Origin: a bacterium
GTDB taxonomy: Bacteria > Fidelibacterota > UBA8477 > JABMPR01
Length of the DNA stretch: 46,330 nucleotides
NCBI GenBank assembly: GCA_013202895.1
Contig: JABMPR010000216.1
Location: 1-46,330 of the forward strand
Direction: 5' to 3'
Shown here: positions 11,096 through 17,305 of the stretch, piece by piece
Position numbering within the stretch: the stretch's first letter is position 1
How the letters are laid out: each line of letters starts with the position of its first letter
Program-made: the position numbers and the translations under genes
Notes under the pieces: model-generated
Seen by the model: only the letters and a program-made list of their open reading frames with translations
What the model was told of the DNA's origin: nothing
The model's database searches: none

Positions 11096-14000
11096 ATGAG
11101 CATTGATCTAAAAAAAGTTTTCGACCTGAATCGCAATGTCTTTATCGAAGCCTGCGCCGGTGCGGGTAAAACCTGGCTCTTGTCCAAGCGCTATGCAGCC
11201 ATCATGGATGATTTTGCCCGACAACAGGCTGAGAATCCTCAAAGTCCGCTTCAAGATGCCTCAAATATTCTGGTCATCACCTTCACCAGAAAAGCTGCCG
11301 CCGAAATGTCCGGGCGCATCTATGCCGATCTAAATCTACTTCTAAATGACCAGCCTTTAGCCCATGTACCAGCTGATTTCGGCTCCTACCTGCGCCAGGC
11401 ACCCCAAAGTTATAAAATGCATCTGCGGTCCACCTACTCCAGGAATGCCATCTCTACCATTGATTCTTTTTGTACTCAGATCCTGAGGGACCAGGCTGAA
11501 AATCTAAATATCGATCCAGAATTCCGGATACAGGATGAAGCAGATACGCAAAGAATGGAAATGGAAACCTGGGAAAGCTTCCTGCGAAACCGCAGTCACA
11601 ACCAGGATCCAGATTTAAAATTTCTCCTTGAACATCTCTCAGTTTACCATCTTAGCGAATATGTAAAAAAGTTGCAGACCCACTCTCAATTGATGATGCC
11701 CTGGTTGGAATACCAAGCCTCTCATTCCCCAGAGGAATTACAATCAGAATTCAGAAAAGCACACTCCCTTCCTTCTGTCCTCGAAAAGGTCGAGCGGCAA
11801 TTAATTGACCTGGTGGACAATCTGCCCAATGCTTCTGAGATGATCAATCCTGACCATGCTCAATACCGTAAATTGGCAGATTTGGTCGCCTTCTTAAGCT
11901 CGCTGATTGAAGATGATTATGTATATGGTTTAGAACTCCTGGAGCTGGTCCGAAGAATCGCACTTATCAGCAGTCGCGAAAAATACTATTCATCGATTTC
12001 AATTCCATCCAATGTCTGGCCAACACAATGGGTAGGGGTGATCAGGGAGCGCTATAAATCCTTTATTTCTGAAATTCAGGATCTGCTCCCTTATGACATG
12101 CTCATGGGTGAGATACCCGGAAAATGGGATTTGGATGCCTGTACGGTTCAACATCACCTCTCCCGGTTTTTTCTAGCTTATTTGGAAGTTTTGAATCAAC
12201 GCTTACAACGGGAAGGTGTACTCAGTTTTAATGAGGTGATCCTCCAAACCAGGAAAGTCCTGGAAAATCCGAAAATAGCCGCATACTATGGAAATCGTTT
12301 TAGTCATATCCTTTTTGATGAATTCCAGGATACCAATGATCTGCGCTGGGATATTATCAGATTAATTGCCCAGGGTAAGAGTCACAAACTTAGAGATCGC
12401 GGTTTGTTTATTGTAGGTGATATTAAACAATCGATCTATCGTTTTAACCAGGCAGATGTGCAGGTCATGAACCGTGTCAGAAAGACCCTCTCTGATGCAA
12501 GGGCTTGGATTCTCAGCGCTGATGAGACTTATCGTTCTTCCCGAAAATTTGTAAACACTGTAATTAATCCCCTGATCAGTGCCACATTTCCTGACGCTGA
12601 TGAGCAAGCTGATCTGGCACTGTACGAAACTGCTTTTCGGCCGACTCTTGCGGCTGAAAACAACCCTCCCATGGATGGGAAGCATGAAATTTCTCGTTGT
12701 ATGTTAAGTGTTGTCCTGGAGGACGATAAGTCCGGGGGATCAGCAATTGATGTCATACATACTGCCGATCTATGCCAGGATTGGCTCACATGGATTGAAA
12801 ATCAAGGTATTGAAACAGGGCCTGGACCCGCTGTTGGCATTCTGCTTAGATCATTTACACATATTCTGGATTATATCCGGGTTTTCACAGCTAAAGGGCT
12901 CGATTTTGAAGTCCTCTCCAGTAAAGGATTATTCGCACAACAGGAAAGTTATGACATCTATCATCTACTTAGCGTATTGATTAACCCACTGGACGATCTT
13001 GCCCTGGTGGGAATATTAAGAAGCCCCTTCTTTATCATAATCGATAGCGATATTCAGAAACTTCGCGAGCTGGCAAGTAATGGTCCTAGAACAGGGTGGG
13101 TCTGGAGCAGTCTGAGTCACTTGCAGCCTGAGATTTTCGAGGAAATTCAAGCTTGGCGTAAAGATAGTGCCCGTGAACCACTGGATCGTCTCATCACAAA
13201 CATCATGTCAGGTGCGGATCGCCGTCTGGGATGGATTTCAGAAACCGGTGGTGCACTGAGACTTGCTAATCTTGAGCGTTTAATCCACATGATTCACCAG
13301 CTTTCTCTGGATGGTCTGGGTTTAAGAGAGATACAAGAGTACTTCAAATTTCAGATTCAGCACGGTGAGGCTTCTCAGGCTGAATTACCTGGTGCAACCC
13401 GAATCCAGATATTATCCATTCATAAATCAAAGGGTTTGGAATTTCCAGTTGTGATCCTACCAAACCTGCAGGCTCCACCCAAGTCAGAAACCAGCGGTAT
13501 TTATATTGGTCGTGCTGGCGAACAGTGGCAGGCTGGAATTACCGTAGATACATTCAATGCCAGCCATAAAACCTTGATGTTTCAAAAAATCAAAGCTAAC
13601 ACAAAAGCCGAAGAAGAAGCCGAGGATAAACGACTCTTTTATGTGGCGCTTACGCGGGCCAGATACGGAGTGGGCTTTGTTGCGAGAATAGACACCAAAC
13701 GGCAGCCATGGGCCAACACCTGGTGGCGACGCTATCTCATGCCAGTCTTTGATCTAGAGCTGGATAAAGAACAAGCGCTAACTGACCCCCAATCAATTCA
13801 AAAGAGTTGGCAGGAACGCTCAAGCTCAGAAATGTTTTTCGATCTTACGCTGGGATCTGAAATACTGGCAAAGAAATCTTTCTCACCCCCTGTGGTTGAT
13901 CAGGAAATAATGTCTCAAGCATCATTCGGGGTTCCTCAAATCTATGAGGAGATATCACCCCATACCATTATGGTCTGGATGGATAAAAAGCATTATGCAG

Positions 14001-17000
14001 GTTCAGATGAGCAAAAGACCGGTGAAGATCGTGATCTGGAAACTACAGCGCTGACCTTTGGTCGATTACTGCATCGTGCCATGGAATTGGAATGGTTTGA
14101 CAGCACTTTATATGCAGAACCCATCCAACACTATCTGGAAGAAGAGGGTGTAGTCGATCCAGAAAACCAGAAACTTTTTCAAGAGGATCTGACCGAATGC
14201 CTGACCCTTTATCGCCAAAGCTCACTGTCCCAAAAAATTGCCGCACTATCCGGAATTGATAAATTTCCAGAAATCCCTGTATTTGGATACCTCAAAAGTA
14301 TGTCCCGTGTATTCAAAGTTTCAGGGATTATTGATTTGCTCTACCTGGATGGGGATGACTGGGTCGTTTTGGATTATAAAACGGATAAAGAACTACCTCC
14401 GAATCTGGAACTTAAAGATTATGCATACTGGTATCAGATACAGACCTACTTATGGATATTGAAACTACTATATGGCATCGAAGCGCGGGGAGAATTGTAT
14501 TTTAATCGTTTTGATAAGATCATAACAATCGAATATGAACCTGAATTGTATTTTTCTAAGCTAGCTACACTGGATCATGGACAAGGCTTGCAGCCAATCC
14601 TACCTTCGGGAACAGATATTGAGGCTGAACTACTAGACATTCTTAAGAAACTTGACCCACATAAACCGGTGGTGATCATTGAACCTACAAAAAATAGCAG
14701 TGAACGCCTCATTCAAGCGATGACACTCAGCGAATTGAATCATCCGAGATTGCAGGTTTTGACGCTGAATGATTTTAGAAAATTGACAGAACCTGTTGGA
14801 CGCAGATTGACGCCTTATCTCAGCAGACTGGGGGTCGCCCGGCTTCTCGGTAAGCGTCCTCAATGGGGAATGGTTAATCGCATAGCAGCAGCCTTTTATA
14901 AAGCAACTCGAGGAGAAGTTGTCACTCCAGATAAGCAGGAACTATTCCATAGATTTCTGGTCTGGTGTACAGAACACAAAATCATGACGTCCGGAAAAGA
15001 GTGGGAATTTTCGAAGTTACTACCAGAATTGAAGATTATTGTAAATTCCATCCACTCAACGACGCCTTCTGATTACATGTTTTTAGCTGATTTAGGTGCC
15101 GAACGTGATCTCATTTTTATAGACCCCTTATCCCCTGGAAAACCGGTCTCCGGGTTCCCAATGACCATTAAAGCCTGGATGACACAGGAGGAGATGCCTT
15201 CCCAGGAATTTCGGCATAGCTACACCCCATGTTTTGCCATTCATGAGGAGCTTGTGCTGGTAGCCTCAAAAATTCGTAACATGCTGCAAGGGGGAACTGC
15301 GCCAGGTGATATCCTCATCGCAGTTTCATCAATGGAACGTTATGTGCCTACCCTTAAACGTGTATTTGATCAGGTGGGTATCTCAGTCCGGGTTAGCAAG
15401 CGTGAACCTGTTATGGAACGGCCGGTTACGCAGCTGGCGCTGGCTCTAATTCAGGGTCGTATCGCGCACCTATTATCCTGGGATATGGCGATGTCTGTCT
15501 GGTTGCATCCCTTAGTCATACCCTCAGGTACTCCAGGCAATACACGCATGAAGCTGGACATCGAAGCACGCAAATTGGGGATTACCACTCTTGACAAGTC
15601 CCTTCCTGACAGGTTCAGCCATCCTAGAATCAACCAGGCTGCAAAAGATTTATTAAAATTTGTTACAAAGGAATGGCATCAAGACCGGAATTCAGGACTG
15701 GTGCAAGAGGCAAAGTGGCTTGCATCTATATTGGGTAGATTCCAATTTACGCATCGTTTGAAACCGGGCAGTGTTGCCTCCAAAGCCTATACTTCACTAA
15801 AGAATGCTATCATTGGCATCCGTGTGGATTGGGAACGCTATTTGAGTCAGAAAGGCAGCCTCAGAGATTTAAACCGTGAGTTAAGAGAACGACTCAAGGG
15901 CGTGGAAGTGTCTTCAGCCCAGCAGGGCTTTGGAGTCGATGTTATCTCATTGCTCGACACCTTGAATCTTACTTGTCCACATCTTTTCGTTATTGGATTG
16001 ACAGAGGGACAATTTCCCATTGCGCCTGATAGCAATCCCTATTTAAAACAATCGGAGCTGAATCCCTGGTTCCTGAATTTATATCTTTTCAAGCATTGGC
16101 TGGCACGTCCCCAGGGCAGTTTACATCTAACGTCACCTCTGCGCAATGCTGATGGAACACCGCTTCAGGAGAGTACTTTTTGTCAATACTTGAATAAGCA
16201 GGAATATCCAAAACTTCCGCCCATTAGTCGCCAGGCCCAGCTTGCACAAATGGCTGGAAAAACATTTGCCAGAACACACTCAAAAATTCAGGATCGCCAC
16301 AACGAATTGCTCCTCAATGCAGGGACGGGGGATTGGTATGGAAAGCTTGCTTCACATGCTGAGAGCTCCTTTGATCAGATCTCTGCCTCTGCTTTTGATG
16401 ATTTGATAAAATGTCCCCAACGCTTCTGGTATAGCCGGAAGCTGTATCTGGAACCTGCTGAAACCAATATTGCAGAGCGCCAGGAAATTGAAGTAGGGAA
16501 TCTGGTTCACAAAGTGTTGGAAATATTTGGAAACCAGGAGGGATTTATTTTAGCTGCCACGGATCTTTCAGCAGCGCTGGAAAAACTTGAATCGGTTGCT
16601 CTCAGTTTTCTCAAGGAGCAGGAAATTGACCCTGATGCAGATCTGTTAGATAATAAATGGAGCGAGTTGTATTTTAAGAACTTCCTGGATCCCGATAGAA
16701 ATCTTCTGGCGGCGATGCTAAACTCTGAGACAATGGTCTTAGACAAGTTTGGCGATCCAGGACTTCATGAGCAGGCTTTTGGTGATATAAATGATGAGCA
16801 ATCATGGCCAGCGGTAGTGATTGAGAATGAGTCCTTGAAATTAGCGCTCAGAGGTAAGATTGATCGTGTATTTATTGAGGGGGATAATGTCTGGGCGACT
16901 GACTATAAGACGGGTCATGTTGATATCAAGCAAAGTCGGGAATTCTGGACCAGTCAAATGTTGTTCTACTACCTCATGCTGAAAACACGGTTTCCTGAAA

Positions 17001-17305
17001 AAAATGTCGTTCTTACCTACGAGCAGGTCAAAGACTTCAAAGAGAACAAGTTTGGTTTTAAGGGTTATTTGGGAGATGTTAGTTCCGATAATCCGGTTAT
17101 GGAAACCTTGCCCCCCAGATCGAAAGCAATAATCCCCATTGCTGATGGTGAAGAATGGTCGGTTGAGCGAATCAAGTCTGAAACACTTTCTTATGCTCGA
17201 TATTTGGCTGACAATGTTTTCCCACTCACCAAACGCGATGAATCTATTGCCTGTGCCTACTGTCCGTATGATCGAATTTGCCGAAAGACAGCATTACCAC
17301 GCTAA
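11096..17305 (+). CDS. AddA-AddB fusion: UvrD-type helicase and two RecB-type nuclease domains in one 2069-residue polypeptide
   Basis: One uninterrupted frame. Residues 1-1180 are AddA-like: Walker A EACAGAGKT (18-26), TFTRKAAAEM, Walker B LFDEFQD (DEFQD at 408), GDIKQSIYRF, IHKSKGLEFP (775), VALTRAR, then a PD-(D/E)xK nuclease with GRLLHRAM and LDYKTD (Asp1093). Residues from about 1190 on are AddB-like: a helicase-like region without a recognisable Walker A, then a second nuclease with GNLVHKV and TDYKTG (Asp1936). The four Cys of the AddB iron-sulfur cluster are present: C1773 (KCPQRFWY), C2053, C2056 and C2062. AddAB resects double-strand ends for RecA-dependent repair and is normally two proteins of 1100-1250 residues each. 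Here both are shortened and joined. Both nuclease centres look intact; one motor seems lost. There is no clear Shine-Dalgarno before ATG 11096. Confidence 0.9.
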   Translation: MSIDLKKVFDLNRNVFIEACAGAGKTWLLSKRYAAIMDDFARQQAENPQSPLQDASNILVITFTRKAAAEMSGRIYADLNLLLNDQPLAHVPADFGSYLRQAPQSYKMHLRSTYSRNAISTIDSFCTQILRDQAENLNIDPEFRIQDEADTQRMEMETWESFLRNRSHNQDPDLKFLLEHLSVYHLSEYVKKLQTHSQLMMPWLEYQASHSPEELQSEFRKAHSLPSVLEKVERQLIDLVDNLPNASEMINPDHAQYRKLADLVAFLSSLIEDDYVYGLELLELVRRIALISSREKYYSSISIPSNVWPTQWVGVIRERYKSFISEIQDLLPYDMLMGEIPGKWDLDACTVQHHLSRFFLAYLEVLNQRLQREGVLSFNEVILQTRKVLENPKIAAYYGNRFSHILFDEFQDTNDLRWDIIRLIAQGKSHKLRDRGLFIVGDIKQSIYRFNQADVQVMNRVRKTLSDARAWILSADETYRSSRKFVNTVINPLISATFPDADEQADLALYETAFRPTLAAENNPPMDGKHEISRCMLSVVLEDDKSGGSAIDVIHTADLCQDWLTWIENQGIETGPGPAVGILLRSFTHILDYIRVFTAKGLDFEVLSSKGLFAQQESYDIYHLLSVLINPLDDLALVGILRSPFFIIIDSDIQKLRELASNGPRTGWVWSSLSHLQPEIFEEIQAWRKDSAREPLDRLITNIMSGADRRLGWISETGGALRLANLERLIHMIHQLSLDGLGLREIQEYFKFQIQHGEASQAELPGATRIQILSIHKSKGLEFPVVILPNLQAPPKSETSGIYIGRAGEQWQAGITVDTFNASHKTLMFQKIKANTKAEEEAEDKRLFYVALTRARYGVGFVARIDTKRQPWANTWWRRYLMPVFDLELDKEQALTDPQSIQKSWQERSSSEMFFDLTLGSEILAKKSFSPPVVDQEIMSQASFGVPQIYEEISPHTIMVWMDKKHYAGSDEQKTGEDRDLETTALTFGRLLHRAMELEWFDSTLYAEPIQHYLEEEGVVDPENQKLFQEDLTECLTLYRQSSLSQKIAALSGIDKFPEIPVFGYLKSMSRVFKVSGIIDLLYLDGDDWVVLDYKTDKELPPNLELKDYAYWYQIQTYLWILKLLYGIEARGELYFNRFDKIITIEYEPELYFSKLATLDHGQGLQPILPSGTDIEAELLDILKKLDPHKPVVIIEPTKNSSERLIQAMTLSELNHPRLQVLTLNDFRKLTEPVGRRLTPYLSRLGVARLLGKRPQWGMVNRIAAAFYKATRGEVVTPDKQELFHRFLVWCTEHKIMTSGKEWEFSKLLPELKIIVNSIHSTTPSDYMFLADLGAERDLIFIDPLSPGKPVSGFPMTIKAWMTQEEMPSQEFRHSYTPCFAIHEELVLVASKIRNMLQGGTAPGDILIAVSSMERYVPTLKRVFDQVGISVRVSKREPVMERPVTQLALALIQGRIAHLLSWDMAMSVWLHPLVIPSGTPGNTRMKLDIEARKLGITTLDKSLPDRFSHPRINQAAKDLLKFVTKEWHQDRNSGLVQEAKWLASILGRFQFTHRLKPGSVASKAYTSLKNAIIGIRVDWERYLSQKGSLRDLNRELRERLKGVEVSSAQQGFGVDVISLLDTLNLTCPHLFVIGLTEGQFPIAPDSNPYLKQSELNPWFLNLYLFKHWLARPQGSLHLTSPLRNADGTPLQESTFCQYLNKQEYPKLPPISRQAQLAQMAGKTFARTHSKIQDRHNELLLNAGTGDWYGKLASHAESSFDQISASAFDDLIKCPQRFWYSRKLYLEPAETNIAERQEIEVGNLVHKVLEIFGNQEGFILAATDLSAALEKLESVALSFLKEQEIDPDADLLDNKWSELYFKNFLDPDRNLLAAMLNSETMVLDKFGDPGLHEQAFGDINDEQSWPAVVIENESLKLALRGKIDRVFIEGDNVWATDYKTGHVDIKQSREFWTSQMLFYYLMLKTRFPEKNVVLTYEQVKDFKENKFGFKGYLGDVSSDNPVMETLPPRSKAIIPIADGEEWSVERIKSETLSYARYLADNVFPLTKRDESIACAYCPYDRICRKTALPR

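Follow-up and report, generated by a model that had tools for sequence, protein, structure and literature searches.

The window analysed here is the whole 46,330-nucleotide contig JABMPR010000216.1 of a Fidelibacterota assembly (GCA_013202895.1; 3.59 Mb, 362 contigs, 88% complete), and the gene under study is an addA-addB fusion at positions 11096–17305 of its forward strand. The gene very probably encodes a natural single-chain AddAB, in which one motor and two nucleases are carried by one polypeptide of 2069 residues. A single-chain, single-motor, two-nuclease enzyme had been proposed in an earlier note made from the DNA letters alone, and the comparisons of sequence presented here support that proposal. 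By its predicted working and its descent the protein belongs with AddAB, yet two features by which AddAB is defined, the division into two subunits and the phenylalanine at the Chi contact, are absent, and it is classed here as a single-chain variant.

Results

The open frame that the earlier note had described runs from ATG to stop without an internal stop codon, and the window contains no N. Residues 1–940 (11096–13915; this and all following features lie on the forward strand) form an AddA-like UvrD-type helicase, a superfamily 1 (SF1) motor, recognised by Pfam PF00580 (UvrD-helicase, 4e-49) and PF13361 (UvrD_C, 6e-23), by the NCBIfam AddA models TIGR02785/TIGR02784 (E-values of 5e-77 and 3e-76 for the N-terminal half) and by the AddA chain 3u44_A in the PDB (2e-27). 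The Walker A-type motif ACAGAGKT (residues 19–26, 11150–11173) is of the same type in all 24 fused rows aligned, and a motif scan for GxxxxGK[ST] found none anywhere in the chain. The AddA nuclease domain follows at residues 950–1165 (13943–14590), with a PDDEXK_1 match at 13997–14506 and the catalytic residues H993, D1080, D1093 and K1095; D1093 (codon 14372–14374) sits in LDYKT. These four residues and their equivalents in the AddB half are kept in 13 of 13 aligned fused proteins. A linker of 46 residues (1146–1191, 14531–14668; borders set by eye) leads from the AddA nuclease to the first AddB strand, and its length is held at 38–47 residues across the same 13 proteins.

The C-terminal half consists of a helicase-like, motor-dead AddB core (residues 1185–1740, 14648–16315) and a second nuclease domain (residues 1755–2063, 16358–17284), which gives the better of the two PDDEXK_1 matches in the protein (1761–2063, 2e-37). 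Its catalytic residues H1805, D1923, D1936 (codon 16901–16903, in TDYKT) and K1938 are intact in 24 of 24 fused rows. The four iron-sulfur (Fe-S) cysteines, C1773 (16412–16414) and C2053, C2056 and C2062 (17252–17281), were located by position check and in the alignment of fused rows; they stand where the earlier note had placed them, as do D1093 and D1936. All four are found in the window protein and in 20 of the 24 fused rows, and all four are gone in L029, L135, L166 and L167, a single subclade in the AddA tree as in the AddB tree. The ratio of nonsynonymous to synonymous differences (pN/pS) against one congener is about 0.25–0.28 for both halves, with synonymous sites saturated, and by this measure both halves are under purifying selection.

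The earlier view that each half is shorter than usual did not hold. The A half (about 1170 residues) lies within the 1121–1211 residues of 13 separate AddA frames from the same phylum, and the B half (about 900 residues) within the 817–1176 residues of 35 separate AddBs. The lack of a Walker A loop in the AddB half was borne out, GxxxxGK[ST] being absent from the first 100 residues of the B half in all 24 fused rows, but it is no special mark of the fusion, as just 6 separate AddB rows out of 28, a set that includes truncated ones, have the motif there.

The C-terminal half is AddB, as judged by profile and predicted fold. A profile of 16 C halves (15 fused, 1 split), built like its companion A1 (13 fused proteins) from the 30 complete-frame genomes described below, aligned by hhalign across 870 columns with a profile of 15 separate AddBs from other phyla (E 4.6e-65, probability 100). 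Against the PDB by hmmsearch, B. subtilis AddB came first (3u44_B, 1.9e-24), followed by AdnA (2e-7) and RecC (4e-5), and the single-sequence matches to NCBIfam AddB models were weak (1e-5 to 8e-4). An AlphaFold2 model of the half reached a mean predicted local distance difference test (pLDDT) of 70 and a predicted template modelling score (pTM) of 0.44; with it, the first five Foldseek ranks were all AddB chains (E 1e-25 to 1e-24), and AdnA and RecC chains ranked lower.

The fusion recurs across the phylum of the window's genome. Fidelibacterota, the name under which NCBI lists the phylum, were formerly called Marinimicrobia/SAR406 (PMC11652737), and 245 of their genomes were searched with the AddB half. 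Matches were found in 151, and 30 genomes carry a complete fused open frame of 1930–2145 residues. In seven more (G009, G010, G011, G014, G016, G047, G077) the frame crosses from the AddA nuclease over the junction but is truncated by a contig end; in G010, G014 and G016 it starts inside the AddA nuclease, so that the junction is seen and the helicase is not on the same contig. Fused frames occur in groups f1, f2, f4, f6, f15, f16 and f31. Among the 19 genomes of the window's genus, its own included, 12 hold complete fused frames and 5 cut, junction-spanning ones, while G007 has the C-terminal piece alone and G005 no match. A complete frame is present in G036, a genome of one contig (2,788,509 bases). 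The closest named match to the protein among those listed is a Candidatus Neomarinimicrobiota contig with 62% identity, and fused-frame relatives reach down to about 30% identity. Two apparent exceptions were set aside. A TAA flagged in the fused frame of G056 was rejected, the 2068-residue frame holding no stop (it contains two N bases, and one codon reads as X). G053, where a 1172-residue frame lacks an AddB match, is no unfused counterexample because the frame runs off the contig end at the junction; it was left out of both fused and unfused counts.

Other families of Fidelibacterota have separate AddA and AddB. A separate addB beside the fusion, which the earlier note had named as evidence against a functional fusion, did not turn up when PF12705 was searched for in the assembly of the window and in 10 genomes that carry the fusion and are given as at least 90% complete, a search blind to any AddB lacking a PDDEXK domain. 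In those 10 genomes, PDDEXK_1 matches besides the fused frames sit in frames of 207–374 residues, and the window's own genome has two stand-alone PDDEXK_1 frames (L002:985–1776, 334 residues; L003:1501–2295, 316 residues). The fused protein is also the sole UvrD-helicase (PF00580) match in this genome; a separate UvrD/PcrA of about 743–765 residues is present in congeners, and its absence here probably reflects the incompleteness of the assembly.

Outside the phylum, no matched open frame exceeded 1341 residues, and hence no fusion appeared, among the matches listed for 40 Calditrichota genomes. The same limit held among the matches listed for 247 genomes of the phylum of an Ignavibacterium genome, for 84 of the phylum of a Poribacteria genome and 297 of that of an Aminicenantes genome (both at E <= 1e-12, weaker matches being unseen), and for 8 additional genomes. 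A broad contig scan gave just one frame with both halves among the 80 loci listed, in a Neomarinimicrobiota contig (L036), and none of the 19 plasmid records with partial AddB-like matches covers 80% of the query.

Some genomes hold more than one related frame. G006 has two complete fused genes (C20:46157–52363 and C37:32324–38527; 63% and 62% identity to that of the window), and G089 (C17, C21; L178) has one complete fused gene and a 1536-residue fused-type frame cut by a contig end; these pairs may reflect duplication or mixed strains in the assembly. Weak AddB-profile matches in frames of about 1000 residues recur in many Fidelibacterota genomes. The one inspected, in G057 (L174:4871–7888, reverse strand), is a PcrA-like helicase with a C-terminal nuclease-like stretch, whose best PDB match is PcrA (7e-60), followed by other UvrD-type helicases and AdnB.

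Phylogeny is consistent with a single fusion origin. The AddA helicase tree comprised 61 rows chosen from the fetched loci (24 fused, 2 split, 35 separate), a more careful AddA tree 33 rows (24 fused, 2 split, 7 separate), and the AddB tree 52 rows, with L133 left out and no AddB row for L108 and L132. Fused and split proteins lie on one side of a branch in the AddA tree (Shimodaira–Hasegawa-like approximate likelihood-ratio test, SH-aLRT, 99) and in the AddB tree (SH-aLRT 100), and the corresponding branch of the careful AddA tree has support of 100/100. Two separate Fidelibacterota proteins (L132, L133) adjoin the fused group in the AddA tree on a very long branch, and the remaining 11 fall among other phyla. 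The fusion probably arose once, in Fidelibacterota.

Among 93 loci inspected, 51 have both genes separately recognised on one strand (40 from named genomes of other phyla, 10 from Fidelibacterota and 1 from the Calditrichota search), and addB precedes addA in 51 of 51. Since the fused chain has the order A-B, it cannot be explained by loss of a stop codon, which would give B-A, and the fusion therefore required a rearrangement. One route would be a tandem duplication of addB-addA in which the inner A and B copies were joined and the outer copies lost. In 9 of the 10 separate-gene Fidelibacterota loci, addB and addA lie on the same strand 932–1795 bases apart, and in the two loci read an opposite-strand membrane-protein-like gene stands between them (L122:3208–4716, 502 residues; L125:3472–4290, 272 residues). 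The best separate AddBs against the fused AddB profile in the Calditrichota search are L164:4441–7572 (1e-66) and L165:4602–7814 (3e-59), both with Tyr at the Chi-contact position considered below; addA follows addB by 156 bases in L165, and AddA was not recognised in the 14.5 kb fetched for L164.

In one genus, g22 (G050, G065 and G080), the fused protein is discontinuous. The first frame (1038–1044 residues in G080 and G050) includes the conserved His of the AddA nuclease domain and stops further on within that domain; the second opens ahead of the conserved Glu, Asp, Asp and Lys and runs on into AddB, being complete in G080 (1013 residues) and truncated at contig ends in G050 and G065. The genome search did not find the helicase piece of G065. 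In G080 each piece is flanked on both sides by other frames on its own contig, so a contig break does not explain the split. Between species, the ratio of nonsynonymous to synonymous divergence (dN/dS) of the pieces is about 0.15 (0.159/1.08), 0.21 (0.161/0.78) and 0.18 (0.218/1.18). Fission after fusion appears the better order of events, because in the AddB tree the split row is nested among the fused proteins, beyond a starred branch, and because a fused clade without the split proteins is rejected in the careful AddA tree (approximately unbiased, AU, test, p 0.0185), though the latter test is not a strong one. If the g22 chains assemble, the AddA nuclease site is predicted to take its His from one chain and its Asp, Asp and Lys from the other. 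An intein or trans-splicing was set aside for this genus: the break between the pieces falls inside the nuclease alignment, where neither piece carries an intein-sized extra segment, and splicing elements were not searched directly.

Two positions bearing on Chi were compared in 24 fused, 1 split and 28 separate AddB rows. Gilhooly et al. (2016, PMC4824097) report that in B. subtilis AddB the substitution F210A makes the response to Chi weaker, and that a salt bridge between E129 and R629, called absolutely conserved, keeps the latch shut, E129A raising the response. At the F210 position none of the 24 fused rows has Phe, against 21 separate AddBs out of the 26 that are not gapped at this point (two are); the window protein has Ile and the split row Val. 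Leaving aside four gapped rows, the E129 position holds Glu or Asp in 20 of 24 separate rows, against 7 of 24 fused rows; in the window's order, all 8 fused rows carry a basic or neutral residue there. These changes suggest altered Chi reading in the fused proteins and are not proof of its loss.

Discussion

The proposed mechanism is modelled on published AddAB (PMC4824097). At a DNA end, the single motor would pull along the 3'-ended strand and unwind the duplex, while the AddB core would feed and scan that strand. The AddA nuclease would cut the 3'-ended strand and the AddB nuclease the 5' strand, and both cuts together would leave a 3' overhang for RecA. Because the Chi-contact position is changed, a different recombination signal would probably be read, or control by such a signal would be weak. 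The idea that fusion fixes a 1:1 stoichiometry adds little, since AddAB is already a 1:1 heterodimer; the real change would be co-synthesis and tethering.

Several points weigh against this picture. The NCBIfam equivalog cut-offs lie far above the scores obtained, both for AddA (TIGR02785, 259.7 against 707.65 bits) and for AddB (TIGR02773, 23.1 against 903.7 bits). The model of the AddB half is moderately confident, with a template modelling score of about 0.41 to 3u44_B and unsure domain placement. A longer model including the AddA nuclease (residues 960–2069; pLDDT 58.6) is poor over its first 410 residues, the likely cause being that separate AddBs had been aligned with the AddA nuclease. 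Each of the three trees was flagged for long branches and for uneven composition. As regards Chi, the F210 and E129 positions were mapped through a distant alignment, the fused proteins form one clade and their 24 rows do not amount to as many events, 5 of 26 separate AddBs likewise lack Phe at F210, and the split row retains the latch Glu.

Other explanations of the frame were considered. The window's genome is a fragmented metagenome-assembled one (362 contigs, 88% complete), and two genes might have been mis-joined or a stop missed; the chance of such an artefact is negligible, given that the same full-length frame recurs in 30 of 245 genomes, including the one-contig genome of 2.79 Mb, at identities down to about 30%, with a linker of 38–47 residues in the 13 proteins aligned and an A-B order reversed relative to the separate genes. 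The recurrence in related genomes that the earlier note had called for is provided by these in-frame junctions, and in the assembled sequence of the 30 genomes the stop or frameshift near residue 1180 that the note had named as contrary evidence does not appear. A C-terminal half of RecC-like or AdnA-like type in place of AddB is very unlikely. Matches to AdnA and RecC do occur, in the profile search and in the Foldseek list, but they stand below AddB in both, and the profile of separate AddBs aligns across 870 columns. RecC is not known to have an active nuclease or Fe-S cysteines, and AdnA retains a motor, whereas no Walker A was seen in the C half of the window protein.

The remaining alternatives concern how an AddA-AddB chain would be used. 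A protease might divide a single precursor into AddA and AddB chains, leaving an ordinary heterodimer to do the work; a linker of about 46 residues could be exposed to such cleavage, but the narrow range of its length in 13 aligned proteins argues otherwise, and this explanation appears improbable. Somewhat less improbable, though still unlikely, is that the enzyme serves chiefly for the destruction of foreign DNA, with Chi control wholly lost. The replacement of F210 in all 24 fused rows, the basic or neutral residue at the latch position in the 8 rows of the window's order and the weaker Chi response of F210A in B. subtilis (PMC4824097) favour it; against it, the latch mutant E129A raises the response (PMC4824097), Glu or Asp remains at the latch position in 7 fused rows and the split row, and one missing contact does not show that every signal is gone. 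The single-chain AddAB with altered Chi reading remains our preferred reading. A fuller history can be offered tentatively, as one possible account: single-chain AddAB may have arisen once by an order-inverting fusion and thereby been freed for rebuilding, with the canonical Chi contact gone from all sampled fused proteins, the Fe-S site lost in one subclade, and one genus re-cut inside the AddA nuclease into a helicase chain and a two-nuclease scanner chain, with the AddA active site assembled in trans.

AddAB-type enzymes set the fate of a broken DNA end, repair or destruction. A natural single-chain form would offer one gene for cloning, mutation and imaging, with subunit dissociation removed as a variable. 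The sampled proteins also indicate which features of AddB survive tethering: all 24 keep the nuclease residues and 20 keep the Fe-S cysteines, but not one has the Chi-contact Phe. The re-split genus shows a point at which the chain can be broken in two, and from it a nuclease site common to two proteins is predicted. No description of an AddA-AddB fusion was found in the titles and abstracts of the papers listed from the openly searchable literature, and the available parts of four AddAB papers (PMC4824097, PMC5101192, PMC11143384, PMC6452273) do not mention one. AddAB, RecBCD or AdnAB has been reported in 88% of surveyed genomes (PMC6452273).

Comparison with known systems

The window protein shares with RecBCD a RecB-type motor and nuclease combined with a RecC-like scanner fold. 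RecBCD is built of three subunits; unlike it, the window chain itself has no RecD-type second motor, and its scanner half carries a second nuclease active site and Fe-S cysteines. With the mycobacterial AdnAB it has in common two nuclease domains and a UvrD-type fold, but AdnAB consists of two motor-nuclease subunits with a motor in each half, whereas the second half of the window protein lacks a Walker A motif. Bad/DNA2-like enzymes have a single nuclease and are not known to have an AddB-type scanner half. They resemble the window protein in joining a helicase and an Fe-S nuclease on one polypeptide (PMC7430649). In the libraries searched, both halves find their best relatives in AddAB (RexAB) of the B. 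subtilis type (PDB 3u44, 4ceh–4cej), with which the window protein shares an AddA motor and nuclease and an AddB helicase-like core with an Fe-S nuclease. It differs from AddAB in being one chain instead of two, in its order A-B against addB-addA, in an AddB half of about 900 residues against the 1166 of the B. subtilis chain, and in the Chi-contact Phe, which is absent from all 24 fused rows.

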